From: Microbacterium salitolerans
GTDB taxonomy: Bacteria > Actinomycetota > Actinomycetes > Actinomycetales > Microbacteriaceae
Reading direction: 5' to 3'
Length of the DNA: 64,000 nt
NCBI RefSeq assembly: GCF_019720895.1
Contig: NZ_JAHKSH010000004.1
Coordinates: 434,001 to 498,000, forward strand
In this document: positions 16,204-64,000 of the stretch, one piece after another
Numbering within the stretch: position 1 is the first letter of the stretch
How the letters are laid out: each line of letters opens with the position of its first letter
Notes under the pieces: generated by a model
What the model saw: the letters and a program-made list of their open reading frames with translations, nothing else
Told to the model about the DNA's origin: nothing
Database searches by the model: none
Made by a program: the position numbers and the translations under genes

Positions 16204-16252
16204 GTGTCTTCCTTGACGATGAGGTGGTCGGGCTCGATCCGCCGCAGCGGGA

Positions 16253-17611
16253 TCAGGCGCCGATCTCCGTGATCAGATTCTGCGCCGTGAGCCGGCCCAT
16301 GCGGATGGCGCCGTCGACGTGCTGGAAGCCCGCGCCGGCGATGTCGCTGCAGGCGAAATGGATCGGGCCGACCGGTGTGCGCACGTCCGCGCCGTAGCGG
16401 TGGAGACCGCCGAGGTCGAAGCTCGCGGCGTACGCCCCGCGGGTCCACTCTTCGGTCCCCCAGTCGCTCTCGTAGTACACGACGGGATTCTTCGCCTCGG
16501 GACCGTAATACGCGGCGAGGGAGTCGAGGATCCGCTCGCGGCGCTCTTCCGCGGACAGCGCGAACACGCCGTCCGCGTCGATGTCGGAGACGAAGCCCAC
16601 GAGCGTGCCGCGCTCGTCGCCGTCATTCGTGTTGTCGTACGCCTCGTGGCACAGCTGGTAGGGGCTGAACACGGTTCCCGAGAGGCCCGCGTCGCGCCAG
16701 AACGGGCGGTCGTACACCGCGTGGACCTTGATGACGAAGCCCATCGAGAGGTGCTGGTGCATCTGGTGCTGCCGACGCGGCAGGGGCGGATCGAAGGTGA
16801 TCCGGCTGTACAGCACCGGCGCGTGCGCGAGCACGACGCGCTTCGCGCGGACCGTCATGCCGTCGCTCGTCACGACGACGCCGTTCTCGTCGTAGCGGAT
16901 CCGACGCACGGGCTGTTTCAGGTAGACGTCGTCGCCGACGCGCTCGGCGAGGCCCTCCGAGACGGCCTGCATGCCCTGGACGATGCGCTTGTCGAGGATG
17001 AAGTCGGCGTCGACGAGGTTCGAGAAGCTGCCGGCGCTCGATGCCATCAGCATGGCCTGCAGGATGGAGAAGGCGTGCGCGGGCTTCGTGAGCATTGCGG
17101 GACCGATGTAGAGCGCGATGTTGTCACGCGCCTCCTGGTCGTCGGTCTCGGCTGCGAGCCACGCGTCGAACGAGATCCGGTCGAGCTCCTCGGCGCGCGG
17201 GTGCTCCCACGGGCGCTCGGGGTCCATCTCGGCGGAGAGCGCGTCGAGCTTCGCGATGATCCGCACGAGCTCCGCCTCGGTCTCGGGCGCGACGGGGAAG
17301 ATGTCGCCGGTGAAGCGCGTGAGCTCTCCGGCCTTCGAGATGTAGAGGCTGTCGCCCTCGCGGTATCGGTCGAACGTGTCGAGTCCGAGCTCGTCGAGCG
17401 TCTCGAGCAGCGCGTCCTGATCGGGCGAGACCCACTGTCCGCCGATCTCGAGCCGCGCGCCGTCGACGTCGTCCGTCCAGGTGCGGCCTCCCACGCGATC
17501 CCGTGCCTCCAGGACGGCGACCGTGACGCCCTGTGCGGTCAGGTCGGCTGCCGCCCGCAGGCCGGTCGGTCCGGCGCCCACGATGGCGACGTCGCGTGTG
17601 ATCTCAGTCAT
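16253..17611 (-). CDS. puo: Flavin amine oxidase, probably putrescine oxidase
   Basis: A 452-residue FAD-dependent amine oxidase. It opens with the dinucleotide-binding motif VAIVGAGPTGLRAAADL, followed by LEARDRVGGRT and GGQWVSP. The C-terminal FAD-contacting segment is SDIAGAGFQHVDGAIRMGR. Actinobacterial enzymes of this subgroup oxidise putrescine to 4-aminobutanal with release of H2O2 and ammonia. Operon context with an APC permease and a semialdehyde dehydrogenase supports a putrescine-to-succinate route. The Lrp-type gene is divergent and likely regulates it. Confidence 0.85.
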   Translation of the reverse strand: MTEITRDVAIVGAGPTGLRAAADLTAQGVTVAVLEARDRVGGRTWTDDVDGARLEIGGQWVSPDQDALLETLDELGLDTFDRYREGDSLYISKAGELTRFTGDIFPVAPETEAELVRIIAKLDALSAEMDPERPWEHPRAEELDRISFDAWLAAETDDQEARDNIALYIGPAMLTKPAHAFSILQAMLMASSAGSFSNLVDADFILDKRIVQGMQAVSEGLAERVGDDVYLKQPVRRIRYDENGVVVTSDGMTVRAKRVVLAHAPVLYSRITFDPPLPRRQHQMHQHLSMGFVIKVHAVYDRPFWRDAGLSGTVFSPYQLCHEAYDNTNDGDERGTLVGFVSDIDADGVFALSAEERRERILDSLAAYYGPEAKNPVVYYESDWGTEEWTRGAYAASFDLGGLHRYGADVRTPVGPIHFACSDIAGAGFQHVDGAIRMGRLTAQNLITEIGA

Positions 17612-17675
17612 GTCCTACTCCTTCGCGGTGCGGCCCGGCGGGACCATTCCGCGAGCATAGGCGAGACCGAGCGCG

Positions 17676-17698
17676 TTCGCAACGGAATCCGTTGCGAA
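17676..17698. promoter_or_regulatory. Perfect 11-bp palindrome, candidate Lrp operator
   Basis: TTCGCAACGGA (17676-17686) is mirrored exactly by TCCGTTGCGAA (17688-17698 with the central base shared), in the 172-bp divergent region between puo and the Lrp/AsnC regulator. Its position about 65 bases upstream of puo fits a repressor or activator site. Confidence 0.6.
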
Positions 17699-17724
17699 TC
17701 TGCGTTCTGGCAACGCTATTCGCA
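17693..17724. promoter_or_regulatory. Second dyad sharing a half-site with the first
   Basis: TGCGAAT (17693-17699) pairs with ATTCGCA (17718-17724), and inside it GCGTT (17702-17706) pairs with AACGC (17712-17716). It reuses the right arm of the preceding palindrome, so the two form a tandem array. Such spaced arrays fit the wrapping of DNA by Lrp octamers. Confidence 0.5.
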
Positions 17725-17783
17725 CGTTTACCCTCGCGTGTCGATGAGATCCGCAGGACCCGCAACGATGCGACAATCGAGCC

Positions 17784-18251
17784 ATGACCTCGAAGCGCAA
17801 TGCACCTGCCCTCGACGACACGTCGAAGGCGATCATCGAGCTGCTGCAGACCGACGGTCGTCGGTCGTACTCCGAGATCGGCAAGGCGGTCGGGCTCAGC
17901 GAGGCCGCCGTGCGCCAGCGCGTGCAGCGCCTCACCGATGCCGGCGTGATGCAGATCGTCGCGGTCACCGACCCCGTGCAGATGGGATTCGCCCGACAGG
18001 CGATGATCGGCGTCCGCGTCTCCGGCGACGCCCGCCAGGTCGCGGACGCGCTCAGCGAGCTGCCCTTCGTCGTCTACGTCGTCATGACGGCAGGATCGTT
18101 CGACATCATCGCCGAGGTGCTCTGCGAAGACGATGACGAGCTCATCGAGATCCTCAACGAGAGGATCCGCGGAATCGAGGGCGTCTCGGCGACCGAGACG
18201 TTCCTCTACCTCCACCTGCGCAAGCAGCTCTACAACTGGGGCACGCGCTGA
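17784..18251 (+). CDS. Lrp/AsnC-family transcriptional regulator
   Basis: A 155-residue protein with an N-terminal helix-turn-helix (about residues 10-60, SYSEIGKAVGLSEAAVRQRVQRL) and a C-terminal RAM ligand-binding domain. It is divergent from the putrescine oxidase operon, with palindromic sites between them, so it most likely controls amine catabolism in response to an amine or amino acid. The start ATG 17784 gives the usual family length. Confidence 0.92.
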   Translation: MTSKRNAPALDDTSKAIIELLQTDGRRSYSEIGKAVGLSEAAVRQRVQRLTDAGVMQIVAVTDPVQMGFARQAMIGVRVSGDARQVADALSELPFVVYVVMTAGSFDIIAEVLCEDDDELIEILNERIRGIEGVSATETFLYLHLRKQLYNWGTR

Positions 18252-18277
18252 CGCACCCCGCCACCGCGGGCGTCAGC
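18247..18277. terminator. Convergent hairpin between lrp-type gene and add
   Basis: GCTGACGC (18247-18254) pairs with GCGTCAGC (18270-18277), with an inner CCCGC/GCGGG pair. It spans the ends of both convergent genes, a compact shared terminator. Confidence 0.65.
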
Positions 18278-19403
18278 GATCGAAGCCGTCGGCGACGAGG
18301 TCGATCAGCTCCTCCCGCTGCTCGACGGGCAGGAATGTGGCCGCCGCCGCATTCAGTTGGAACTGCTCGATGTCGTCGAGCTCGTACCCGAACGTCTCCG
18401 CGAGCTTCGCGAGCTCGCGCGTGAGCGTCGTGCGACTCATCAGGCGGTTGTCCGTGTTGACCGTGACGCAGAAGCCCAGCTGGTAGAGCAGATCGAACGG
18501 GTGATCCTCCAGAGTGGTCCCCCAGCGCGCGATCGCCCCGGTGCCGAGGTTCGAGGTGGGCGCGAGCTCGAGAGGGATCTCGCGGTCGCGTACCCAGCGG
18601 GCGAGATCGCCGAAGATCACATGGACCTCGTCGCCCTCGGTCTCGACCTCCTCGAGCTCCTCCGCGATGCGCACGCCGTGGCCGAGCCGCAGGGCGCGGC
18701 CGTCGAGAATCGCGCCGCGGATCGAATCGGGGCCCGCCGCCTCGCCCGCGTGCAGCGTGACGGGGAAGAACTCGCGTGCCAGCAGGTCGAGCGCCTCCTG
18801 ATGGCGTGACGCGGGATACCCGTCCTCCGGACCTGCGAGGTCGAAGCCGACGACGCCCTCCTCGCGGAAGTCGAGCGCGACGCGCGCGACCTCGAGCGAG
18901 CGATCCGCCTGCCGCAGAGCGGAGAGGATCTGGTTCACGCGGATCGAGTGCCCGCCCGCGTCGGCCGCCTCCTCGCCCTGCTCGAGGCCCTCCTGCACAG
19001 CCTGCACGGCCTCGTCGAGGGTGAGTCCGCCGTCGAGATGCTGCTCGGGGGCCCAGCGGACCTCGCCGTAGATGACGCCGTCGTTCGCGAGGTCCTCCAC
19101 GAACTCGCGCGCGACGCGCGTGAGGGCATCGGCAGACTGCATGACGGCGATCGTCAGCTCGAATGTCCGGAGGTACTCGACGAGCGACTCGGACGCGGCC
19201 TGCTCGGCGAACCAGTCGGCGAGCTCCCGCGGATCCTTTGCGGGAAGCGCGACGTCCATCTCGGTCGCGAGATCGATGACGGTCGACGCCCGCAGCCCGC
19301 CGTCGAGGTGGTCGTGCAGCGAGATCTTGGGGAGGCTGCGGACGGGGACGCCGCCGATGCGCGCCTCGTGGCGGGCGGGACGGTGGTTCTTGCCCTGGGG
19401 CAT
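18273..19403 (-). CDS. add: Adenosine deaminase
   Basis: A 376-residue metal-dependent deaminase converting (deoxy)adenosine to (deoxy)inosine. Zinc-site and catalytic motifs are visible in order: SLHDHLDGG, HAGEAAGPDS, LRLGHGVRI and NTDNRLMS (the variant of the STDDP motif seen in actinobacterial enzymes). The start is placed at 19403 because AGGAGA lies just upstream. An in-frame ATG ten codons earlier has no such site. It is the last gene of the nucleoside salvage operon. Confidence 0.93.
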   Translation of the reverse strand: MPQGKNHRPARHEARIGGVPVRSLPKISLHDHLDGGLRASTVIDLATEMDVALPAKDPRELADWFAEQAASESLVEYLRTFELTIAVMQSADALTRVAREFVEDLANDGVIYGEVRWAPEQHLDGGLTLDEAVQAVQEGLEQGEEAADAGGHSIRVNQILSALRQADRSLEVARVALDFREEGVVGFDLAGPEDGYPASRHQEALDLLAREFFPVTLHAGEAAGPDSIRGAILDGRALRLGHGVRIAEELEEVETEGDEVHVIFGDLARWVRDREIPLELAPTSNLGTGAIARWGTTLEDHPFDLLYQLGFCVTVNTDNRLMSRTTLTRELAKLAETFGYELDDIEQFQLNAAAATFLPVEQREELIDLVADGFDR

Positions 19404-34811: not shown

Positions 34812-35909
34812 ATGACCACGACAACCGCACCCGAGAAGAACGTCGCCCTCACGGCCGGGCACCTCCCGAAATGGGTCCCCTGGGCCCTGTTCGCCGGATC
34901 GATGACCATCGCGGCCATCGTCTTCATCGTCGCGAATGCCAGCGGCGACATCGCCGAGTTCAACATCGCCGGAACCCTCTTCTTCGGCATGGTGCTGTAC
35001 ATCGCGCTCGTCCTCGTCGTCTCCGGAATCGCCGAGAGCCGCCGCCACGCGATCGACCGGCTGATGACGGCCCTCGTCGCGTTCGCGTTCGGGCTGGCCT
35101 GCCTGCCCCTCGCCTCCGTGCTCTGGACCGTCGTCTCGAGCGGCATCGCGCGCTTCGACGCCGAGTTCTTCAGCTACTCGATGCGCAACGTGCTCGATGC
35201 CGGCGGCGGCGCCGTGCACGCCATCTGGGGAACCATCATCATCACGGCCCTCGCGACCGTGATCTCGGTTCCGATCGGTCTGATGACGGCGATCTACCTC
35301 GTCGAGTACGGCGCGGGAAACCGCCTGTCGAAGGCGATCACGTTCTTCGTCGACGTCATGACGGGCATCCCCTCGATCGTCGCGGGTCTGTTCATCTACT
35401 CGGTCTTCGCGCTGATCTTCGGGCCGGGCATCCGCATGGGCATCATGGGCGCCCTGGCGCTCAGTGTGCTCATGATCCCCGTCGTCGTGCGCGGATCCGA
35501 GGAGATGCTCCGCATCGTCCCGAACGAACTGCGCGAGGCGTCGTTCGCGCTCGGCGTGCCGAAGTGGCTGACGATCATGAAGGTCGTCCTCCCCACGTCG
35601 ATCGCGGGAATCACGACGTCGATCATGCTCGCGATCGCGCGCGTCATCGGCGAGACCGCTCCCCTGCTCCTCACCGCCGGATTCACGCACAACCTCATGC
35701 TCGACGCGTTCGAGTCGAACAACGGCCAGATGATGACCCTGCCGGTCTTCGCGTACACGCAGTACATGTACCCGAATGCGTCGAACCCCGATGCGTCCCT
35801 CGACCGCGCCTGGGCCGCCGCCCTCACCCTCATCGTCATCGTGATGGTGCTCAACCTGCTCGCGCGCCTCATCGCGAAGGTGTTCGCGCCGAAGATGACC
35901 GGCCGCTGA
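34812..35909 (+). CDS. pstA: Phosphate ABC transporter permease
   Basis: A 365-residue permease. Two or three additional N-terminal hydrophobic segments precede the canonical six-helix domain, which includes [16 protein letters not shown] and the EAA loop [22 protein letters not shown]. The N-terminal extension is common in actinobacterial PstA. It completes the PstCA channel. Confidence 0.95.
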
Positions 35910-35958
35910 CGCGCCGTCGCATACTGTTCTCGAGCCGAAAAGAAGAAGGATCCCTCAG

Positions 35959-36738
<780 letters not shown>

Positions 36739-39554: not shown

Positions 39555-40328
39555 CTACGGCGCGAGGACGAGTTCTGTGCCCGCCGCGGTGAGCGCCGCC
39601 GCGATCGCGTCGGGCGGTCGGCGATCGGTGACGAGCATGTCGATATCTCGGTAGTCGCCGAGGCGCACAAGGTCGGTGCGCCCCATCTTCCCGTGCGACG
39701 CGATCAGCACCACGCGATCGGCCGCCGCCATGATCGCCAGCTTCGTGGACAGCTCGAGGTTGCGCTCGATGTACAGCCCGCGGGAGTCGACGCCCGCGAC
39801 GGCGATGAAGGCGGTCTCGGCGCGCAGACCCTCGAGGTTCGCGATCGCCATGTCGCCGACGAAGGCCTGACTGTCGTGGAGCAGCTCCCCGCCGAGCGCG
39901 ATCGTCCGGGCGTTCGGGAGATGCAGAGCGGCCTGCATCACCGGCGCCGAGTGTGTGATGAGCGTGCCGGAGAACGACTGCGGCAGCGCGCTGGCCACGG
40001 CGTACGCGGTGGTCCCCGCATCCACGAACACACGCTCGGAGGAGGAGATGAGCGTCACGCACGCCGCCGCGATCCGGCGCTTCGCCTCGGCGTCCTCCCC
40101 GGCGCGCGCGGCGAAGCCGACGCCGTGCATCGTGCCGTGCGGCAGCATGAGACCGCCGTGCACGGAGCGCGCGGCTCCTGTCTGGGCGAGTCGACGCGCA
40201 TCGCGTCGGATCGTCATGTCGGACACCTCGTACGTGGCCGCGAGCTCCGTCGTCGAGACGAACCCGCGCTCCTTGAGGTCCTGCACGATCGCACGCTGCC
40301 GAGACGACAGACCTTCGGGACCAGGCAC
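39555..40328 (-). CDS. DeoR-family regulator of the sulfoquinovose cluster
   Basis: A 257-residue protein with an N-terminal DeoR helix-turn-helix (about 21-58, STTELAATYEVSDMTIRRD followed by ARSVHGG) and a C-terminal sugar-phosphate sensor domain (FVDAGTTAYAVASAL, then GGELL and KLAIMAAADRVVLIASHGK). The E. coli sulfoquinovose operon is also controlled by a DeoR-family protein (YihW/CsqR). As the last gene of this cluster it probably represses it until a sulfosugar or its phosphate binds. The start is GTG 40328. Confidence 0.9.
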   Translation of the reverse strand: MPGPEGLSSRQRAIVQDLKERGFVSTTELAATYEVSDMTIRRDARRLAQTGAARSVHGGLMLPHGTMHGVGFAARAGEDAEAKRRIAAACVTLISSSERVFVDAGTTAYAVASALPQSFSGTLITHSAPVMQAALHLPNARTIALGGELLHDSQAFVGDMAIANLEGLRAETAFIAVAGVDSRGLYIERNLELSTKLAIMAAADRVVLIASHGKMGRTDLVRLGDYRDIDMLVTDRRPPDAIAAALTAAGTELVLAP

Positions 40329-40385
40329 CCTAACTTCTCACCTTCTGCCCGTGAGCGAGACGGAGACCGCCGCCGGGCATTTACG

Positions 40386-41129
40386 TCAGTTTACGGCCAG
40401 CACTCGCGCGACCCCCTGCGCGATGACGGCGATCGCGCCGGCGAAGGCGAGCACGATGACCATGATCCTGGCCGCCTTCGGCCCGACCACCTTCGCGAGC
40501 AGGGTACCGGCGGCGACCCCGAGTCCGACAGCGCCGCCGCACACGACCCACTGCTGCCAGGACAGGGAGGGAAGAGCCCATTTGGCGGCCAGGGACGCGG
40601 CTCCGAGCACGAAGAAGTACAGCTGCACGGTCGCCGCGAACGCGGGCTGCGGCCATCTGGTCGCGATCGCGTAGGCCGAGATGGCGGGCCCGCCGACGCC
40701 CGCGGTGACGTTCATGAACCCGGACGCCGCGCCGGCGGCGATCGCGCCACCCCGGCCCATCATCCGGACGCTGCCCCGCGCGAAGAGGCTCGCGCACAGC
40801 GCCACCACCGTCAGCACGCCGATGATGAGGGTGAGAAGTCCGGCCGGGACGAGGCTCGCCACGATCGCGCCCGGCACGGTGGCGATGACCGCCGGCACGA
40901 GCAGCAGCAGCGCGCGCCTGCCCTCGACGCGACGCCAGACGGAGACCAGCACCACGAGCGCCGTCAGCGCCCCGAAGACGTTGACGACCAGCACACCCTC
41001 GAACGGGCCGAGGAGCACGACGAGGAACGGGGACGCGACGAGCGCGAAGCCCATCCCCGAGATCCGCTGGGTCGCCGTTCCGAGGAAGACCGCGAGACCC
41101 AGCGCCGTCAGCGGCAGCCATTCACTCAT
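40386..41129 (-). CDS. TauE/SafE-family sulfonate/sulfite exporter
   Basis: A 247-residue membrane protein with about eight hydrophobic helices and the duplicated TauE/SafE layout (GFALVASPFLVVLLGPFEGV; GFMNVTAGVGGPAISAYA). Members of the family export sulfite or small organosulfonates. Beside a sulfoquinovose pathway the natural cargo is the end product sulfolactate, as proposed for other sulfoglycolytic bacteria. It is transcribed after the aldehyde dehydrogenase that would make that product. Confidence 0.87.
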   Translation of the reverse strand: MSEWLPLTALGLAVFLGTATQRISGMGFALVASPFLVVLLGPFEGVLVVNVFGALTALVVLVSVWRRVEGRRALLLLVPAVIATVPGAIVASLVPAGLLTLIIGVLTVVALCASLFARGSVRMMGRGGAIAAGAASGFMNVTAGVGGPAISAYAIATRWPQPAFAATVQLYFFVLGAASLAAKWALPSLSWQQWVVCGGAVGLGVAAGTLLAKVVGPKAARIMVIVLAFAGAIAVIAQGVARVLAVN

Positions 41130-41161
41130 TCGTCGTGTTCGGGTGCTTCCTGCTCGTCATG

Positions 41162-42586
41162 TCAGACTCGCCACGCCAGATACTTCGGTTCGGTGAACTC
41201 GTCGAGACCGAGAGCGGAGCCCTCGCGGCCGAGGCCCGACTGCTTGACGCCGCCCATCGGGGCGAATGCCACCGAAGGCAGCGGATCGTTGATGCCGACG
41301 ATACCGGCTTCGAGTCGGTCGGCGACCCGCCAGCATCGCGACGCATCGCGCGAGAAGACGTACGATGCCAGCCCCATCTCGGTGCTGTTGGCCTGAGAGA
41401 CGGCCTCGTCCTCCGTGTCGAACCGGAATACGCCGGCGACCGGACCGAAGACCTCCTCGCGCGCCAGGCGCGCGTCGTCCGGGACGTCCGTGAACAGCAT
41501 CGGGCGCACGAAGTGCCCCGTCTCCGGGACGTCGCGCGGGGTCGTCGCCTCCACCGCGCCGCGCGCGACCGCATCGGCGACGATGTCGTTCACCGCCTGC
41601 ACGCCCTTCGCGTCGATCATGGGCCCGAGATCCGGTGTCGGCTCCGCCAGCCCGTCGCCGATCGACATCGCGTCGAGCCGGCGTGCGAGCTTCGCGACGA
41701 ACTCATCATGGACGCCCGCCTGCACGAGGAAGCGGTTCGCGCCGACGCAGGATTGCCCTGTGTTGCGTGTCTTCGCCAGGACGGCCGCCTCGACGGCCTG
41801 ATCGATGTCGGCGTCGTCGAACACGACGAACCCCGCGTCGCCGCCGAGCTCGAGCAGCGGGCGCACGACGCGCTCGGACGCCTTCGCCATGATCGCGCGG
41901 CCGACCGACGTCGAGCCGGTGAAGGTGACCACGCGCACGGCGGGGTGCTCGAGCAGCGCGTCGGTGATCTCGCGCGACGGGCCGTGCACCAGGCCGAGCA
42001 CGCCCGCGGGCACGCCCGCATCGCTGAACGCGCGGATGAGCTCGGTGACCGCGAGCGGAGCGCGCTCCGACACCCGAACCACCACGGGACAGCCGGCCGC
42101 GAGGGCGGGCGCAAGCTTGCGCGCCTGCAGCGAACAGGGGAAGTTCCACGACGTCAGGCTCACGACGACGCCCGCGGCCCTGCGCGTGCTGAGGTGCCGG
42201 CGTGCGCCGTCCTCCTGGGAGAAGACGCTGCCCTGGGGCCGCCGCACCTCCTCGGCGAACCACCGGATGTACTCGGCTGAGAAGCCGAGCTCGCCGACCG
42301 CCTCCGGCAGGCGCTTGCCCGCCTCTGCCGCGAGGATCGGCGCGATCTCGTCGGTGCGCTCCCGCAGCAGCTCCGCGGCCCGCAGCAGGATGTCCGCGCG
42401 CTGCCGGCCCGGCAGGCTCGCCCACGCGTCGAAGGCGCGTGCCGCGGCGTCCGCGGCACGGCGAGCGTCGTCGGCGCTCCCCCAGCACACGGTGCCGACC
42501 GTCTCCCCCGTTCCCGGGGCGGTCACGCGGCGACGCGCGTCGAGCGCCGACCATTCGCCGTCGATGAGAGTGGTTTCCGTGTGCAT
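41162..42586 (-). CDS. Aldehyde dehydrogenase, candidate sulfolactaldehyde dehydrogenase
   Basis: A 474-residue NAD(P)-dependent aldehyde dehydrogenase with N148 (TSWNFP), E246 (LLELGGD) and catalytic C280 (NTGQSCVGANR). Its similarity is to succinate-semialdehyde dehydrogenases, the group from which known sulfolactaldehyde dehydrogenases come. In the usual K-x-S-E cofactor-binding motif the lysine is replaced by R171 (VVVRVSE), so cofactor preference deserves a check. Within the cluster it would oxidise 3-sulfolactaldehyde to sulfolactate. The start ATG 42586 has GAAAGG upstream. Confidence 0.85.
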   Translation of the reverse strand: MHTETTLIDGEWSALDARRRVTAPGTGETVGTVCWGSADDARRAADAAARAFDAWASLPGRQRADILLRAAELLRERTDEIAPILAAEAGKRLPEAVGELGFSAEYIRWFAEEVRRPQGSVFSQEDGARRHLSTRRAAGVVVSLTSWNFPCSLQARKLAPALAAGCPVVVRVSERAPLAVTELIRAFSDAGVPAGVLGLVHGPSREITDALLEHPAVRVVTFTGSTSVGRAIMAKASERVVRPLLELGGDAGFVVFDDADIDQAVEAAVLAKTRNTGQSCVGANRFLVQAGVHDEFVAKLARRLDAMSIGDGLAEPTPDLGPMIDAKGVQAVNDIVADAVARGAVEATTPRDVPETGHFVRPMLFTDVPDDARLAREEVFGPVAGVFRFDTEDEAVSQANSTEMGLASYVFSRDASRCWRVADRLEAGIVGINDPLPSVAFAPMGGVKQSGLGREGSALGLDEFTEPKYLAWRV

Positions 42587-42615
42587 GGCAGTCGCCTTTC
42601 GTGTCATGTCCGTGG

Positions 42616-43431
42616 TCATCCCTTGACCGCACCGCTCGTCATACCGGCCACGAAGTAGCGCTGCAGGAACACGTACGCGATCACGACGGGGATGGAGGAC
42701 AGGAGGACTCCCGCGAACAGGAGCGGATAGTTGGTGAGGTACTCGCCTTGGAACCGCAGCAGCGCAAGCGGCAGCGTCGCCTTCGAGTCGGACGACACGA
42801 ACATCAGCGGGTACAGCAGCTCGTTCCAGTGCATGACGAACAGGAACGTCGCCGTCGCCGCGATCGAGGGAGCCGACAGGGGCATCGCGATCGATCGATA
42901 CGTGCGCCACGGGCCGGAGCCATCGATCTCTGCGGCCTCGTACAGCCCAGACGGCAGGGTCCTCATGAATCCGCCGAGGATGAACACGGCGACCGGCAGC
43001 GTCGACACGATGTTGATGAGGATCAGCCCGAGCTGGCTGTCGAGCAGTCCCAGCTGACCGAACTGGATGTACTGCGGGATCATGTTCGCCTGGGTCGGGA
43101 CCGACATGCCGAGCACGATGAACCCGAACAGCAGCCAGCCCTTCCATCCGGGGATCCGCGAGATGCCGTACGCGGCCAGCGACGCGATGAACAGCGTGAG
43201 CAGGACCGAGCTCACGGTGATCACCGTGCTGTTGACGAACGCCACCGCCAGATTGCCCCCGGTGAGCACCTCGGCGAAGTTGTCGACGTTCGGCGACGTG
43301 GGCACAGCGAAGGAGCTCTCGAAGATCTCCGAGGTGGTCTTGAAGCTGCCCGACAGCACGACGAAGAGCGGGACGGCGATCAGCACCGCGTAGACGACGA
43401 GGATGACGGCGCGGGAGACTCTGCCGGTCAT
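42616..43431 (-). CDS. Carbohydrate ABC transporter permease (MalG type)
   Basis: A 271-residue permease with six transmembrane helices and the EAA loop YEAAEIDGSGPWRTYRSIAMPL. Its start overlaps the preceding permease stop (ATGA). With the MalF-type permease and the lipoprotein it forms a sulfoquinovose or sulfoquinovosyl-glycerol importer. No ATPase gene is present in the cluster, so a shared MsiK-like ATPase encoded elsewhere probably powers it. Confidence 0.92.
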   Translation of the reverse strand: MTGRVSRAVILVVYAVLIAVPLFVVLSGSFKTTSEIFESSFAVPTSPNVDNFAEVLTGGNLAVAFVNSTVITVSSVLLTLFIASLAAYGISRIPGWKGWLLFGFIVLGMSVPTQANMIPQYIQFGQLGLLDSQLGLILINIVSTLPVAVFILGGFMRTLPSGLYEAAEIDGSGPWRTYRSIAMPLSAPSIAATATFLFVMHWNELLYPLMFVSSDSKATLPLALLRFQGEYLTNYPLLFAGVLLSSIPVVIAYVFLQRYFVAGMTSGAVKG

Positions 43432-44366
43432 GATTCCCCCTTCTGGATGAGCCGGAGCAGTCGCCGGATCGTGAAGGTGATGATGAGGATGAAGATGATG
43501 AACAGCACGGACTCGGTGGCCGCATAGCCGAACTCGGAGTTCGCGAAGCTGGAGTAGATGCGCGTCGACAGGATGTCGAGGGAGCTCGGCGGCGGATTGC
43601 CCGAGATGCTCAGGACGACGTCGAACGCCTTGAACGACTGGATCGTGGTGTAGCCGACGACGATCGCCATCGCCGGGCCGATGAGCGGCCAGGTGACCGA
43701 CCAGAATCGGCGCCACGGTCCCGCCCCGTCCACTTCTGCCGCCTCATACAGCTCGGCGGGGATCGCCTGCAGCCCCGCGACGAAGATCGTGATCATCATC
43801 CCGGCGTGGAACCAGATCTGCACGACGGCGAGCCAGAAGATGGCCTGCGTCTCGTCGCCGAGGAACGAGGACTTCCAGGCGCCGAGACCGACGGCATCGA
43901 GCGTGCTGTTGATGACGCCGAAGTTCGGGTCGTAGACGAACTTCCAGATGAAGCCGACCGACACCGACGACAGGATCGTCGGGAAGAAGTACAGCGCCCG
44001 CAGGAAGACGTTGGTCTTCGTGTTCTTCACCAGGAAGACCGACAGGATCAGGGAGAGCACGGTCTGCCCGACGAGAACGACGACCATGAACTTCAGGTTG
44101 TTCGCGAGCGCGTTGCCGAACAGCGAGTCGTTCGTGACGGCGCGGACGAAGTTGTCGAGTCCGACGTAGTCGAAGTCGGCGCTGTATCCGTCCCAGTTCG
44201 TGGTGGCGTACTGGAAGGTCTGCAGCATCGGCAGGATGAAGAAGGTCAGGTACAGCGCGAGCGCCGGGAGGGGGAACAGGTAGAGGGCGGGCGAGACCCG
44301 CCGTCGCGAACGCCGGAATCGGCGCTTCGTGCCGCCGCCGGTCACGATCAGTTCTGTGCTGGTCAT
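43428..44366 (-). CDS. Carbohydrate ABC transporter permease (MalF type)
   Basis: A 312-residue permease with a basic N-terminus and six membrane segments. The first (LYLFPLPALALYLTFFILP) and the EAA loop YEAAEVDGAGPWRRFWSVTWPL are typical of carbohydrate-uptake family 1. It is followed by the MalG-type partner and preceded, four bases away, by the solute-binding lipoprotein gene. Confidence 0.92.
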   Translation of the reverse strand: MTSTELIVTGGGTKRRFRRSRRRVSPALYLFPLPALALYLTFFILPMLQTFQYATTNWDGYSADFDYVGLDNFVRAVTNDSLFGNALANNLKFMVVVLVGQTVLSLILSVFLVKNTKTNVFLRALYFFPTILSSVSVGFIWKFVYDPNFGVINSTLDAVGLGAWKSSFLGDETQAIFWLAVVQIWFHAGMMITIFVAGLQAIPAELYEAAEVDGAGPWRRFWSVTWPLIGPAMAIVVGYTTIQSFKAFDVVLSISGNPPPSSLDILSTRIYSSFANSEFGYAATESVLFIIFILIITFTIRRLLRLIQKGES

Positions 44367-44370
44367 GTCA

Positions 44371-45675
44371 TCACCCCGCCGCCGCGATGCGCTGGTCGAC
44401 GATCACCTGTGCGTCTTCGGCCGCCTGCTCCGGCGGCGTGCCGGTCATGGCCGCGATCCCCGCCGCCTCCACGGAGTTGCGCATGTCGAGGTCGAGGAAC
44501 TGGAAGCGGGTCGCCAGGGAGAGGTCCTTGTCCAACCAGGGCGTCAGCCGCTGCAGGTCGGGGTTGGTGTACTCCACCCCGGCGACCGACGTGTGCTGGG
44601 CGGTGTTGTCGCCGTAGTAGGCGGCGATCTCGGGGTCGCTGAGGAACTCGAGCCATGCCAGCGCCGTCGCCTGGTTCTCGCTCGCGGCGTTGATGCCGAG
44701 GATGAAGGTGGCGTTGTACACGCCGACGTACTTCGCCTGCCCCGGAGCATTCGTCATGGCGGGAACCAAGTCGATCGGGAACTCGGCGCCGAGCGAGCGC
44801 GCCGAGGCGATGTGGTAGCTGCCCGTCGCCAGGATCGCCGCGTCGCCGGTGGCGAACATCTGCTGCGCCGGCTCTGCCGCGGTGCCCGCCGCGTTGTCCT
44901 GCGTGTACTGACCGAGTTCCTGGTATCGCCGCAGCATCTCGACGAACCAGTCGTCCGTGCACGCGTACTCACCGGACTGGAGCTTCGTGAACATGTCGTC
45001 GCTCGGAGCGATGTTCATCGACATCGAATTGATCAGCTGCCCGGCGTTGCCGGGGTCGGCTCCCGGGATCGCGAACGGGATGACCCCGCGGCTCTTCAGC
45101 TTGTCGAGCATGTCGAGGTACGAGTCCCAGTCCTGCGGAGCCTCGGCATACCCGACCGCACTGAGCAGATCCATGTTCGCGATCGGCACGTTGAACACGA
45201 TCTGGTACGGGAAGCCGTACTGTTCGCCGCCCTTCGCGCCCGCGCCGATCAGGCTCTCCTGGTAGCGCTCGACGAGACCCGACGAGCCGAGCTTCGCGAA
45301 CAGGCTCGCCGCGACGAACTGCTCGAACTGGTCACCTCGCCCCGCCGGGGCGACGTCGCCGATCGACCCGCTGCGCAGGCGTCGCAGCGCCTGCGCCGCA
45401 TAGTCGTTCGACGTCGAGATGTCCTGGTCGACCCGGACATCCGGATTCTGCTCGATGAACCGGGCGATCAGCTCCTCGAACACTTCGCGATCCTCGCCGC
45501 GCCAATGTGCGAAGGAGAGCTCGCCGCCGACGCCGCCCGACGCGTCGAGCGTGGTGTCGTGCTGGATCGTGGTGCCCGGTGCGGCGCACGAGGCCAGCAG
45601 CGCACCGAGGCCGACGGCGCCCGTGAGGCCGAACAGCTGGCGCCGGGTCGGGCGCCAATTCTGTAGCGATGACAT
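44371..45675 (-). CDS. Extracellular solute-binding lipoprotein of the sulfosugar importer
   Basis: A 434-residue family 1 solute-binding protein. The N-terminus has a twin-arginine motif (TRRQLFGL, R11-R12) and a lipobox LLASC with C30, suggesting Tat export and lipidation. The mature domain begins with LSFAHWRGEDREVFEEL, typical of carbohydrate binders. ATG 45675 follows AAAGGAG; a TTG three codons earlier is not needed. Its position inside the sulfoquinovose cluster suggests binding of sulfoquinovose or its glycerol glycoside. Confidence 0.9.
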   Translation of the reverse strand: MSSLQNWRPTRRQLFGLTGAVGLGALLASCAAPGTTIQHDTTLDASGGVGGELSFAHWRGEDREVFEELIARFIEQNPDVRVDQDISTSNDYAAQALRRLRSGSIGDVAPAGRGDQFEQFVAASLFAKLGSSGLVERYQESLIGAGAKGGEQYGFPYQIVFNVPIANMDLLSAVGYAEAPQDWDSYLDMLDKLKSRGVIPFAIPGADPGNAGQLINSMSMNIAPSDDMFTKLQSGEYACTDDWFVEMLRRYQELGQYTQDNAAGTAAEPAQQMFATGDAAILATGSYHIASARSLGAEFPIDLVPAMTNAPGQAKYVGVYNATFILGINAASENQATALAWLEFLSDPEIAAYYGDNTAQHTSVAGVEYTNPDLQRLTPWLDKDLSLATRFQFLDLDMRNSVEAAGIAAMTGTPPEQAAEDAQVIVDQRIAAAG

Positions 45676-45718
45676 TGTCCGCAACTCCTTTGTTGGGGGA
45701 ATGATCGGCGGGCGCCCG

Positions 45719-46603
45719 CTATCGGGCGAGCGCTCCGTCCGCGACGTCGACGAGTCGCCTCAGCCGATCGACGGCGTTCGTCGCCAGATCCGCCGGCACG
45801 TCGTCGGCGCCCAGCGACGGCGCCCACACGGCGCGCCCGGCGAGGAAGCCGGAGGCACCCTGCTCGCAGGCGATCCGCACGGCGTCCGGGAACACGTCCG
45901 GCGCGACGCCGGACGACAGAATCACCCAGGGGCCGTCGATCGCCTCGGTCAGGCGCGTGCACTCGGCTCGCAGCACCGCGACGTCGCCGCTGCCGCGCAT
46001 CGGCATCTCCGCCTTGTACAGGTCGGCTCCGAGCGAGCCGAGCTCCTCGGCCGCGCGATGCACGCCGTCGTTCCAGTCCCAGTCACCGCCGGAGATCGGG
46101 GCACGGGAGACCGGCTCGATGATGCTCGCGAGCCCGGCGTCGCGGCAGATGTGGATGAACTCGCGCGTCATCGCGATCCGCTCCTCCGGCGCCTCGTCCG
46201 GGCGCCAGAGCACCAGCAGCTTCAGCGCGACGGCACCGCGGCGCTTGAGGTCGTGTGCATCGATGAGCCGATCGATCGTCACGCGCCCGACGAGCTCGCC
46301 GTGCGCCGGCTCGAAATGGTCGGCGGATCCGATCAGCCCGCAGGACGGATCGACGACCCGCTGTTCGATGGCCTGATCGAGAGCGAACTGGCGGTCGATG
46401 AGGACGGCAGAGGCCAGCGGCGTCAGCACGCGCGCCGCGGTGAGCTTGAAGTCGAGGAGGTCATCATCGGTGACGCGACCTTCGGTGTGCTCGGCGAGCA
46501 TGTTGCGCAGCGCCTCGCGCTGGTCGACCGCGAGCATCGCGAACGCTCCGGACGGGCGTCGCAGGGGCGCGAGGGGGTCGGTCTCGATCTGGATGTCGGT
46601 CAT
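45719..46603 (-). CDS. Sulfofructose-1-phosphate aldolase (YihT-like)
   Basis: A 294-residue class I aldolase. Compared from memory with E. coli YihT (292 residues) it shares long segments: GAFAMLAVDQREALR, ALKLLVLWR, SIIEPVSRAP, WVILSSGV and GASGFLAGRAVWA. The Schiff-base lysine is K197 in ADLYKAEMP, matching the YihT lysine. It would split 6-deoxy-6-sulfofructose-1-phosphate into DHAP and 3-sulfolactaldehyde. Tagatose-1,6-bisphosphate aldolase (LacD) is the related alternative, but neighbours favour the sulfosugar. Confidence 0.92.
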   Translation of the reverse strand: MTDIQIETDPLAPLRRPSGAFAMLAVDQREALRNMLAEHTEGRVTDDDLLDFKLTAARVLTPLASAVLIDRQFALDQAIEQRVVDPSCGLIGSADHFEPAHGELVGRVTIDRLIDAHDLKRRGAVALKLLVLWRPDEAPEERIAMTREFIHICRDAGLASIIEPVSRAPISGGDWDWNDGVHRAAEELGSLGADLYKAEMPMRGSGDVAVLRAECTRLTEAIDGPWVILSSGVAPDVFPDAVRIACEQGASGFLAGRAVWAPSLGADDVPADLATNAVDRLRRLVDVADGALAR

Positions 46604-46645
46604 GTCGTCGTCCTTGTCGTCGAAGTCGATGAGCAGGGGGCGGGC

Positions 46646-47554
46646 TCAGCGAGCCAGCGCCCGGATGGTCTCGTCGTGGTCGGGGATGCGCGTCCGGCCG
46701 TCGAGGCCTCGGCACGACAGCGTCGCGACGGTGGTGGCGTACTCCACGGCGCCGCCGAAGCCGCCGTCCAGCAGGCCGCTGTCCGCGTGAAGCAGTCCGG
46801 CGATCAGGGCGCCGTGGAAGACGTCGCCGGCGCCGAGCGTGCTCACGACGTCGGCACGCGGCGGCGTGGCGGCGGCGCGCTCACCGTCCGCGCGCAGGCC
46901 GAACGACCCCCGGCCCCCGTCGGTGACGACGACGGCGTCCGCGCCCTCGTCGATCGCTCGGCGCATGCTCTCGTCGAGATCCTCGCCCCCGTAGCGGCGT
47001 TCGAGCGCCTCGCGGGTCGGGGCGAAGAGCGCCGTGCCGTCGAGAGCGAGCCCCGGGATCTCGTTGCCGGCGTCGATCGAGAGACGCGGACCGGGGATCC
47101 GGTCGCGCAGGTCTCGCACCGCCTGCCAGCCATGCTGGTCGACGTGCACCCATGCGGCCCCGGAGATCAGCTCCTGCGCGCGCGATGCGTGGGAGAGATC
47201 GAGTCGCGGGCCGACACGATTGACGATCGCGCGTGTGCGCTCGCGGCCACTGACGATGACGATGCTGCGCGAGGTCTCGGCTCCGGGGACCGCCACGAGT
47301 CCCGAGACGTCGACGCCTTCCGCCGCCAGCCGGGCGCGCACGCGGTCGCCGGCCTCGTCGTCGCCGACGGCTGCGATCACGGCACTCGGAACGCCGAGCC
47401 GCTGCGCCGCCACGGCGGCCGTCGCGGCCGGCCCTCCCCCGCCGAACACCATGCCGTCCGCGACCACGCGCTCGTCGGCATCCGGGTACCGGTCGACGAG
47501 AGCGATGGAGTCCTCCGTCGCGACTCCCGCGAAGACCGCCCGGGGCGTGGTCAC
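46646..47554 (-). CDS. Sulfofructose kinase (YihV-like, PfkB family)
   Basis: A 302-residue PfkB-family sugar kinase. Features shared with E. coli YihV are the [13 protein letters not shown] segment (38-50), the GAGD anion-hole motif (241-244, catalytic D244) in [12 protein letters not shown], and the C-terminal [13 protein letters not shown] close to the GRAGIPDCDQT of YihV. It phosphorylates 6-deoxy-6-sulfofructose at C1 with ATP. The GTG start 47554 overlaps the isomerase stop (GTGA). Confidence 0.92.
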
Positions 47555-48792
47555 GAGGTCACCGTGTCGAGGAGGCCCGCGGCGAGCGCCGGTGCCATGG
47601 CGGGTGCGAGCGGGAGGCGCGGGACGATCAGGCAGTGCATCAGATGGTAGATATCGGGCTTGCCGTCCCACACTTCGGTCGAGACGACGTTCTCCGGAGA
47701 GAGCTCCTGCCACCACGAGCCGTTCTCGGTGTCGATGAGGTGCTCCTTGGCGTAGTCCCAGAAGCGCTGGTACCACTGCTCGTACTCGTCGTCGCCCGTG
47801 ACGCTGTACAGGGCGGAGGCCCCTCCCATCGCCTCGACGACGACCCACCGGATCCGCTCGCGGACGACGGGTTCGCCATCCCAGCCGACCGAGTACACGA
47901 AGCCCGGGTTGCCGTCCGGCTCCCAGGCGTCGCGCACCGCGGCGCGGAACACGCCCGTCGCGTCCTCGACCAGCCAATCCGGCGCGTCGAGGCCGCGGTT
48001 CAGCAGCGACTGGCGCAGCGAGAGCAGCAGGCGCGCCCATTCGGTCCAGTGCCCGGGGGTGCCGCCGTAGGCCCGGAATCGGTGGGCGCGATTGTCCGAG
48101 TTGTACTCGAACAGTGGGGTGAGGGTCTCGTCGAAGTGCTCGACGACGCGGTACTCGTTGTTCCGAGCGACCTCGTGGATGATCTTCCGGCTGATCTCGA
48201 GGGCGCGGTGGAGCCAGACGTCGTCGCCTGTCACGTCCGCGACCACGAGGAAGGCCTCGACCGCATGCATGTTCACGTTGCCGCCGCGGTACGCCTCGGT
48301 CTCGGTGAACGCGGCGTCCCACGACTCGAGGCTGATCTGGTTCTCGTCGTCCCAGAAGCGACGTTCGAACAGCTCGATGGCGCGGTCCAGCAGCTCGCGG
48401 GCACCGGGCCGCCCCGCGGCGGATGCGCTGGCGGCGCCGAGCAGCACGAAGCAGTGCGCGTAGCCGGGCTTCGAGGTATCGACCGGCCCGTCCGCGTTCA
48501 CCTCGGCGAACCAGCCGCCGTTGACGTCATCGTGCAGCGGGCCGTTCAGCGCCCGGATGCCGTGGTCGACCAGCGCGCCGGCGCCGGGCCGCCCCATCAG
48601 CGCCGCGAGAGAGTACACGTGCACCATCCGACTGGTGATCCACAGCTCGGTGTTCTTGTCGTCGCGCACCACGCCCTGGTTGTTCAGCCAGCCGAATCCG
48701 GTCGGCACCTTCGCGCCGCGGCCGAACTCGAACGTGCGATCCGCTTCGGCTTCGAGCCATCGCGCGTGAGCCGGTGTGTTGAGCCACTTCAT
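47551..48792 (-). CDS. Sulfoquinovose isomerase (YihS-like)
   Basis: A 413-residue AGE-superfamily protein, the same length as E. coli YihS and strongly alike throughout, e.g. MKW-N-T...[44 protein letters not shown] and DIYHL-HCL. The histidines important in YihS fall at identical numbers, H176 (NMHAVEA) and H248 (TPGHW). It interconverts sulfoquinovose and 6-deoxy-6-sulfofructose (and sulforhamnose). It is the most diagnostic gene in the cluster. Confidence 0.94.
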
Positions 48793-48835
48793 CGGATTCC
48801 TCTTCCTCGTGTCGCGTTCAGATCCGCCGGGGCCC

Positions 48836-49966
48836 TCAGGACCGTGCGAAATCGAGATCCACCGGCTGGTGCGTCGCGGCGGAGCGCTCCGCCGCGATGC
48901 CCATCAGGACAGCGCGGAGGCCGTCCTCGAGCGTCACCTCGACGTCGGCCGCGCCCCGCACCACCTCCTGGAACCGCTGGTGCTCGAAGAACGTCGAGCC
49001 GTAGTGCCCGCCAGCCGCCTCGAGCTCGGGGTCGATGCTCACGTCGTGGTGCACGGGCCCCTGCGGCTCGCGCGGGCTGAACGTGACGAAGGCGTCGCGC
49101 TCCAGCGCGGTCCAGTGACCCGATGCCACGGGGACGCCGACCTCGGTCTTGGCGACGTCGCCGATCACCGACATGTGCTCCTGATACTGGCTGCCCTCGG
49201 CGAACATGCACAGGTTGAGCATCGCGCGACCGCCGCCCGCGAAGTCGACCGTCACGAATGCGTTGTCGAGGATGTCGGGCACGTGGCCGTCGTAGCTCTC
49301 GTCTCGATGGTTCACGTCTGCCGCGCCCGACGCGTACACGCGCACCGGCTCATCACGCAGGATCAGACGCATCAGGTCGAAGAAGTGGCACGCCTTCTCG
49401 ACGAGCGTTCCCCCGGTGCGCGCCGCGAACCGGTTCCAGTTCTCGACCTTGTGGAGGAACGGGAAGCGATGCTCCGTGATGGTCAGCATCCGCGGCGTCC
49501 CGGTCCTGCCCCCGTGCACGTCGTCCAGGAAGCGCTGGACCGGCGGCATGTAGCGGTACTCCATGGCGACCCAGATCGGTGCACCGTACTCCTCTGCGGC
49601 GCGTCGTACGCGTTCCGCGTCCTCCGGAGTGGTCACGAGGGGCTTCTCGATCAGGATCGGCAGGGCCACTCCGGTCGAGAAGACGTCGAGCAGGATCTGC
49701 GCATGCGTGTCGTTGGGGGTGGCGATGATCAGCGCGTCGAGGTGCTCATCGGCGAGCATCTCCGCGTGCGTGGCATATGTCGTCGCGTCCCGGGACAGCA
49801 GCGCGCGCGCCGCGTCGAGCGACGGTGCGTGCGGATCGGCGATCGCCGCGATCTCGCTGCCCTCGAGCATCTCGACGTAGCGGATGTGCTCACGACCCAT
49901 CGTGCCCGCACCGACCAATCCGTAGCGAAGCGTGCGGGTCTCGTCACTCGAAGCGTGGTCCGCCAT
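48836..49966 (-). CDS. Gfo/Idh/MocA-family protein, candidate NAD-dependent sulfoquinovosidase
   Basis: A 376-residue protein with an N-terminal Rossmann domain ([19 protein letters not shown], residues 16-34) and the family signature EKP (107-109). A C-terminal sheet domain has [11 protein letters not shown] as substrate-side motif. It is the promoter-proximal gene of the sulfoquinovose operon. Some Gfo/Idh/MocA proteins in sulfoquinovose clusters are known to be NAD-dependent glycosidases that release sulfoquinovose from its glycerides (the GH188 type, from memory). No classical GH31 sulfoquinovosidase is present in this window. The alternative is a sulfoquinovose or sugar dehydrogenase. 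Confidence 0.75.
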
Positions 49967-49996
49967 GTCACCGTCCTCATTGCGCGATGTGCTTTC

Positions 49997-50025
49997 TCCA
50001 ACGTTCAGTGTTGGATTTCGAACAC
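49997..50025. promoter_or_regulatory. Overlapping dyads upstream of the sulfoquinovose operon
   Basis: TCCAAC (49997-50002) pairs with GTTGGA (50010-50015), and GTGTT (50008-50012) pairs with AACAC (50021-50025). They lie 31-59 bases upstream of the first start codon (49966) and are a plausible operator for the DeoR regulator at the other end of the cluster. Confidence 0.5.
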
Positions 50026-50240
50026 GCTAGCAATGGGGAGCATCACCCGTCAACAGTCTGTTCGTCGCGCACTCGCCCGAAGGCGGCCGCGCCGATCGCC
50101 TTCGAAGCGGGCGACGGCGGGGCACGAGAATCCGCGGATCCACAGCCGCCGCGGTTCGTCAGACATCTCGGCGTGGAGAATCGCCGGTCGCCGACCGACC
50201 GAAGGGGCGCCCGAGCGTCGGAGCGCAGCGCCCGAATGCA

Positions 50241-50270: not shown

Positions 50271-50281
50271 CTCGTTCTCGG

Positions 50282-50321
50282 TGGGCCCAGCGGGGCTCGA
50301 ACCCGCGACCCGCGGATTATC
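50282..50321 (-). pseudogene. tRNA 3'-end fragment, left attachment site of the prophage
   Basis: On the minus strand the sequence has a normal T-arm (GCGGG-TTCGAGC-CCCGC), a 5-nt variable region, the acceptor 3' strand TGGGCCC and discriminator A. Upstream of the anticodon-stem 3' strand (TCCGC) the pairing partner is missing, so only about 40 bases of a tRNA remain. The anticodon reads GAT if the loop is native, but the break lies so close that a lysine-type tRNA (loop CTCTTAA) is equally possible. With the integrase next door this is best read as attL, with the intact tRNA regenerated at the far prophage end. Confidence 0.8.
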
Positions 50322-63464: not shown

Positions 63465-64000
63465 AGCCTCGCCTCCTCATCTGCGGCGTCGTCGAAGACC
63501 GCCTCGGTGAGGACGCGACCGTCGACGGTGACGACCCGGACGATGGTCCGATCGCCGCGGGGGCCGACCTCGATATCGACGTCGTCCAGCGACGCCGAGA
63601 TGTCCGCGGCGGACTGACCGGCGAACGTCGGCACCTCGGGGTACACGTACCCGTCGGCGCCCGGCACGAACAGCTCGGGGACTCCGCCGTCGCCGACGAT
63701 GTACCCCTCGCCCCTCCGGACCGGCCCGCCCTCGGCGAGCATCGGGAACACGCCACCGTTCGCCATCGCGAGGTGGATGTGGTCGTAGTGCTGCGCACGG
63801 ACGGCCGGACTCCACCCCGCGAACGGCTGGCCGTTCTGCAGCTGCCGGGATCCGGCGGGCGTGTAGATCAGCTCGGACGCGTTCGGGAACAGGCCCGCGA
63901 TGGTGTTGAACGTCTCCATCGTTGCGGGGATCAGGTCGATCGCGCGCCCCAGGGCGTGGTACGACTGACCGCCGTTGACGGTGACCGCCCCGGGACGGTA
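63461..64000 (-). CDS. C-terminal part of the tape-measure protein with an LAS-type peptidase signature
   Basis: The reading frame enters from the right edge and continues past an internal ATG (63919), so it is the end of a longer protein. It reads SYHALGRAIDLIP and, about 55 residues later, HYDHIHLA. This H-x6-D plus H-x-H arrangement is the zinc-site pattern of LAS metallopeptidases (D-Ala-D-Ala carboxypeptidase type). The remaining ~100 residues (GGVFPMLAEGGPVRRGEGYIV) have the Gly-rich tape-measure tail motif. The enzyme part could cut peptidoglycan during DNA injection. Confidence 0.78.
   Translation of the reverse strand, partial: YRPGAVTVNGGQSYHALGRAIDLIPATMETFNTIAGLFPNASELIYTPAGSRQLQNGQPFAGWSPAVRAQHYDHIHLAMANGGVFPMLAEGGPVRRGEGYIVGDGGVPELFVPGADGYVYPEVPTFAGQSAADISASLDDVDIEVGPRGDRTIVRVVTVDGRVLTEAVFDDAADEEARL

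Follow-up and report, generated by a model that had tools for sequence, protein, structure and literature searches.

Two Arthrobacter strains, AK01 and AK04, were isolated on sulfoquinovose, a sulfur-containing sugar found in plant membranes, and 13C nuclear magnetic resonance identified sulfolactate as the product (Kaur et al. 2022, PMC8873060). As described there, their gene sets include homologs of YihS, YihV, and YihT, a GabD-type dehydrogenase, ATP-binding cassette (ABC) transporter genes, an IolG homolog, and, in AK04, TauE. The text and the Fig. 4 legend of the same report name Microbacterium sp. No. 7 among "non-identical but closely syntenic" clusters. According to the proteomics in PMC10755693, the corresponding genes of AK01 are induced by sulfoquinovose, and the induced oxidoreductase is a member of the SqgA family of NAD+-dependent sulfoquinovosidases. 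In a review from 2026, the sulfo-Embden-Meyerhof-Parnas (sulfo-EMP) pathway is already listed for Arthrobacter and related Actinobacteria (PMC12890257). Here, we describe a similar gene cluster from Microbacterium salitolerans, in a 64,000-nucleotide stretch of contig NZ_JAHKSH010000004.1 that we call the window.

The cluster lies on the minus strand at 39,555–49,966. A first-pass annotation of the window had proposed a collinear sulfoquinovose operon, and all ten of its reading frames were found on this strand, head to tail. The genes are separated by at most 57 bp or overlap by 4 bp (isomerase/kinase, permease 1/permease 2, and permease 2/dehydrogenase). Their Pfam families are Gfo/Idh/MocA oxidoreductase, GlcNAc 2-epimerase, PfkB, DeoC/LacD aldolase, SBP_bac_1, BPD_transp_1 (twice), Aldedh, TauE, and DeoR. 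Given the gene content and order, the family memberships, and many of the catalytic and sulfonate-site residues, we consider it highly probable that this is a single operon for the catabolism of sulfoquinovose and its glycosides via a modified, sulfolactate-forming sulfo-EMP pathway.

The closest described relative is in Microbacterium sp. No. 7, which we presume to be the source of one of the loci that we compared (L033). All ten genes are present at this locus, with order and strand unchanged, and 10.5 kb of its DNA is 76% identical to the window (39,562–49,929). It is from a different species, and its isomerase is 79–80% identical. Compared by published description, the gene sets of Arthrobacter AK01 and AK04 share with the window the homologs of YihS, YihV, and YihT, a sulfolactaldehyde dehydrogenase in place of the reductase, the ABC genes, the IolG homolog (later SqgA), and, in AK04, TauE (PMC8873060). 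The yih operon of E. coli also has YihS, YihT, and YihV, but its GH31 glycosidase YihQ, mutarotase, YihO/YihP, and YihU-type reductase have no counterpart among the window's ten genes, which include the dehydrogenase, SqgA, the ABC genes, and TauE instead. In two genomes from the same order (L034 and L035), sqgA and the kinase gene are divergently oriented. The isomerase gene follows tauE in L034, and in L035 it comes after deoR, on the side of sqgA.

A sulfo-EMP pathway to sulfolactate is a very likely prediction for this operon, and it is a type of pathway that has already been described. The first-pass annotation had mentioned variant sulfo-EMP pathways from Arthrobacter-like bacteria, which are indeed published (PMC8873060), and had suggested that both the species and the gene order might be new. 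The order is not, because the presumed No. 7 locus has the ten genes in identical order; since that strain's cluster is published, the species is the only additional element. Among literature on Microbacterium and sulfoquinovose, PMC8873060 alone appeared relevant, as judged by title. The operon adds one predicted sulfoquinovose degrader to a genus in which the operon is rare. It is also compact and comes with a testable candidate operator, while the pathway and the key enzymes are already in print.

The first gene, sqgA (48,836–49,966; 376 amino acids), had been noted as a Gfo-type enzyme and left unexplained. It matches the NAD+-dependent sulfoquinovosidase SqgA (GH188, with a Gfo/Idh/MocA fold) and would be the pathway's glycosidase. 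Its best matches among solved structures are 8qc3 (E = 2.6e-137, over nearly the whole length) and 8qc2 (E = 1.5e-136), followed by 8zn9 ("Oxidoreductase, putative"; E = 4.8e-112); inositol dehydrogenase is far behind (E = 2.7e-19). The ligand residues of ArSqgA (8qc3) are defined in PMC10755693. The window's K108, Y137, R167, L171, K173, E190, H194, and H321 are identical to K107, Y136, R166, L170, K172, E189, H193, and H321 of ArSqgA. The two proteins are from different species and share both the catalytic residues and the sulfonate triad (R167, L171 via its backbone, and K173 in the window's protein). The genome encodes no second close SqgA: the next match is just 29% identical (E = 1.9e-19). 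We also considered a GH31 glycosidase elsewhere in the genome and ruled it out, as PF01055 had no matches in the whole genome, while the same search was positive in 6 of 14 control genomes. The absence of GH31 is expected for clusters that contain SqgA, according to PMC10755693.

The YihS-type isomerase, the PfkB kinase, and the class I YihT-type aldolase share this one cluster. The isomerase (47,551–48,792) is 62.7% identical to E. coli's YihS over 413 positions, and both proteins have 413 residues. They have R55, H176, R238, H248, Q362, and H383 in common; the alignment confirms the earlier statement that the lengths agree and that H176 and H248 are at the E. coli numbers. The roles of these residues in YihS, and of the YihT residues discussed below, are our assumption. 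The best solved matches are 2afa ("NAG isomerase"), entries for yihS, and 7ag4 ("Sulfoquinovose isomerase"), with E values from 3.7e-185 to 4.7e-184. The putative sulfofructose-1-phosphate aldolase (45,719–46,603; 294 amino acids) shares 47.4% identity with YihT across 289 positions. Its K197, which the first-pass annotation had singled out, aligns with K193 of YihT, and R257 aligns with R253. The best solved match is 7ag7 ("Sulfofructosephosphate aldolase"; E = 1.1e-77).

The candidate sulfofructose kinase (46,646–47,554; 302 amino acids) is the weakest of the four enzyme assignments. It most likely begins at the GTG at 47,554, which overlaps the isomerase's stop codon by 4 bp, rather than at the start of the listed 558-amino-acid frame, because the alignment with YihV begins there. 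The best solved match is 7ag6 ("Sulfofructose kinase"; E = 2.1e-23). This match and those of SqgA, the isomerase, and the aldolase greatly exceed what chance would produce. We take the sulfonate-site residues of YihV to be Lys27, Asn109, and Arg138. R29 of the window's kinase aligns with K27 and N112 aligns with N109. Near the position of Arg138, all 9 actinobacterial kinases that we aligned have a H(V/A)D(Q/H)(H/L)GW stretch. Across 15 homologs of the kinase, the Arg138 column is variable, and the N109 position is Ala or Thr in 7.

In place of a sulfolactaldehyde reductase, the operon appears to have an aldehyde dehydrogenase with the expected motifs. (We found no such reductase among the ten operon genes, to which this search was confined.) The candidate sulfolactaldehyde dehydrogenase (41,162–42,619, with alternative starts at 42,607 and 42,586; 485 amino acids) is similar to GabD or succinate-semialdehyde dehydrogenase. 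It matches PF00171 with E = 3.7e-148, has Cys291 within RNTGQSCVG, and has an arginine after WNFP. Relative to WNF and the catalytic Cys, Arg167 and Arg285 are at the same distances as Arg171 and Arg289 of RlGabD. According to PMC10599462, these two arginines of RlGabD are proposed to bind the sulfonate, and both are present in Arthrobacter. The window's dehydrogenase lacks the second Cys, as does that of Arthrobacter according to the same paper.

The cluster also includes an ABC solute-binding protein (44,371–45,675; PF01547), two ABC permeases (43,428–44,366 and 42,616–43,431; both PF00528), a TauE/SafE family permease that we propose is the sulfolactate exporter (40,386–41,129; PF01925, E = 6.5e-19), and a DeoR family regulator (39,555–40,328; PF00455 and PF08220). 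The binding protein is similar to sugar-binding chains in the PDB (best E = 8.7e-19), and by eye, its N terminus resembles a lipoprotein signal. For permease 1, the best NCBIfam match is UgpA, under its cutoff. The first-pass annotation had described a full ABC importer. This does not hold: using Pfam, we found no ABC ATPase gene in the ten-gene cluster, so the importer is incomplete there. Two MalK-type OB-domain matches elsewhere in the genome are candidate ATPases, and we infer that one of these serves the operon's importer. To the left of the operon and on the opposite strand, ABC permease and ABC ATPase genes are found at 34,812–36,738. By eye, these resemble phosphate transport genes. 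The ATPase gene is at 35,959–36,738, beside the permease gene.

In the proposed pathway, sulfoquinovosyl glycerol or sulfoquinovose would be imported by the binding protein and the two permeases, with an ATPase that is encoded elsewhere. SqgA would cleave the glycoside, using NAD+ as a catalytic cofactor. The isomerase would then form sulfofructose, the kinase would form sulfofructose-1-phosphate, and the aldolase would split this into dihydroxyacetone phosphate and sulfolactaldehyde. The dehydrogenase would oxidize sulfolactaldehyde to sulfolactate, which the TauE-type protein would export. The DeoR protein might repress the operon by binding a palindrome that lies immediately after the promoter. 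The sequence backs the earlier description of an actinobacterial sulfo-EMP pathway with exported sulfolactate.

Several observations weigh against this pathway, besides the lack of an ATPase gene in the cluster. Among the matches listed, none of the ten proteins reaches a curated NCBIfam cutoff (this covers 25 of 44 matches for the dehydrogenase; no matches were found for TauE). In particular, the best NCBIfam match of the isomerase is "D-mannose isomerase," at 518 bits versus a cutoff of 600. Q379 of YihS is replaced by proline in the isomerase. The kinase has just 33.8% identity to YihV, across 281 positions, and has no secure counterpart of Arg138, which aligns with Gly in one alignment and with a shifted Arg in another. 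For the dehydrogenase, succinate-semialdehyde dehydrogenases make up most of the best solved matches. Also, Glu163 of ArSqgA corresponds, by alignment offset, to T164 of the window's SqgA; this position is not Glu in the 8qc3 chain either, and the neighboring E165 is Glu in both.

The divergence of the kinase around Arg138 might indicate that the operon acts on another sulfosugar, such as sulfofucose or sulforhamnose, via an EMP-like route. As reported in PMC12421959, a sulfonate gene cluster that is induced by sulfofucose has kinase and aldolase homologs. In that same account, however, sulfofucose took an Entner-Doudoroff-like route, and the homologs of the isomerase, the kinase, and the aldolase were not induced. 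Given also the 62.7% identity of the window's isomerase to YihS and the induction by sulfoquinovose of the matching gene set in AK01 (PMC10755693), we think that another sulfosugar is very improbable.

A pathway for non-sulfonated sugars of the mannose or tagatose type, with the isomerase, the kinase, and the LacD-like aldolase acting on ordinary sugars, has just as little chance of being correct: the best NCBIfam names (D-mannose isomerase, ribokinase, and tagatose 1,6-diphosphate aldolase) would suggest it, but all are below cutoff, and among solved structures the isomerase and the aldolase are much closer to sulfo-EMP enzymes than to other relatives. The isomerase scores 619 bits against sulfo-EMP enzymes versus 155 against other relatives, and the aldolase scores 264.6 bits versus 55.7 for the first non-YihT chain. 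We reject a mannose or tagatose pathway because of this ranking and the sulfonate residues, which include the triad of SqgA. Furthermore, Q362 of the isomerase also occurs in E. coli's YihS and at the 10 cluster loci that we compared (8 of them distinct); at loci that lack the other enzymes, 18 of 18 homologs have histidine. (This comparison excluded homologs below 38% identity or 85% length.) A gene of the TauE type within the operon also argues for a sulfonated substrate.

To describe the distribution of the sulfoquinovose operon, we considered homologs with E ≤ 1e-60. SqgA was found in 2 of 198 genomes from the genus, including the window's own. The isomerase was found in 6 of the 198: the same two, and four others in which it is 36–40% identical. 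The aldolase was found in 19 of 396 genomes from the order and in 19 of 299 genomes from the family (the window's own genome is included in each), and many of these matches are more distant relatives. When we searched plasmids with the isomerase, the top actinobacterial match was from Embleya, at 50.8% identity (among the best 15 of 142 records).

For comparisons of gene order, 17 of the 35 distinct places outside of the window's genome were fetched. The nearest named isomerase is from M. halophytorum (88% identity). Nine of the ten genes are in the same order at its locus (L009), and tauE has no match in the fetched stretch. The DNA similarity covers window 41,169–50,024 and 39,579–40,301, and the dehydrogenase gene of L009 has a further 179-bp match to another place in the window. 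For both L009 and the presumed No. 7 locus, the similarity ends at the borders of the cluster, within compared flanks of 8.8 + 2.2 kb and 2.9 + 3.7 kb, respectively, and the latter have no similarity to the window. As the window's right flank is hidden by a prophage (see below), this suggests a different chromosomal place for the operon on the left side only. The difference in the left flank and the rarity of the operon within the genus hint at horizontal transfer.

Other clusters differ in gene content. In the Nesterenkonia halophila cluster (L010), a GH31-family gene (16,248–18,542) lies between permease 2 and the dehydrogenase, and sqgA has no match in the fetched stretch, so the type of glycosidase may be swapped within a nearly constant gene order. 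In two other clusters, a gene that encodes a fucose isomerase C-terminal domain lies between the aldolase and the binding protein (L041, 9,812–11,623, above the Pfam cutoff; L037, 8,084–9,634, just below it), and the YihS-type isomerase has no match in the fetched stretch. Clusters that include a fucose isomerase are among the variants described in PMC11465081. Finally, a 36,621-base contig that is labelled as Acidobacteria MAG (metagenome-assembled genome) G2_35 carries a cluster of the actinobacterial type (L012). This label looks wrong because a contig of 36,621 bases from a genome that is placed in the window's own family (L044) has matches at corresponding places.

Upstream of sqgA, we noticed a possible promoter on the minus strand (50,024–50,053), with a -35 box of TTGACG (50,053–50,048), an 18-bp spacer, and a -10 box of TAGCGT (50,029–50,024); these were read by eye. 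About 10 bp downstream of the possible -10 box is a 15-bp palindrome, CAACACTGAACGTTG (49,999–50,013, minus strand), which is a candidate for the DeoR operator. From the window, L009, L033, and L036, we derived the pattern CAACAYTNNRYGTTG. It has one match in the window (0 of 100 shuffles have any) and one in the 3.46-Mb genome. Among 55 loci, 6 contain it: L009, L033, and L036, where it is at the start of the operon, and three that repeat the window or L033. The pattern is not universal, as the other cluster loci (L010, L011, L012/L044, L034, L035, and L037–L043) lack an exact match. A broader idea, which we think is doubtful, is that the actinobacterial sulfofructose kinases form a clade whose sulfonate site is unlike that of E. 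coli's YihV (with R29, and with the H(V/A)D(Q/H)(H/L)GW stretch replacing Arg138) and also that the whole operon is mobile as a unit under its own DeoR operator.

We found no tRNA genes in the window, and the single Rfam match within 34,000–58,000 was below the gathering score (32 bits versus 50). A 39-base stretch to the right of the operon (50,281–50,319) repeats, with one mismatch, the 3'-terminal part of an intact tRNA-Lys (TTT) that is about 39.8 kb further right. Between the repeat and the tRNA are a phage integrase (50,358–51,446) and, beyond it to the right, holin, endolysin, and baseplate-like genes. The repeat begins at 50,281, and the integrase and the phage genes are all on the side of it that faces away from the operon. 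We therefore rejected the operon as prophage cargo: the prophage, which is inserted in tRNA-Lys, adjoins the operon but does not contain it. A 23-bp part of the repeat occurs twice in the genome, allowing up to 3 mismatches, and neither occurrence is left of the operon. The prophage extends over about 39.8 kb (contig positions 484,281 to ~524,137), of which we examined the left part, from 50,281 to the end of the window at 64,000.

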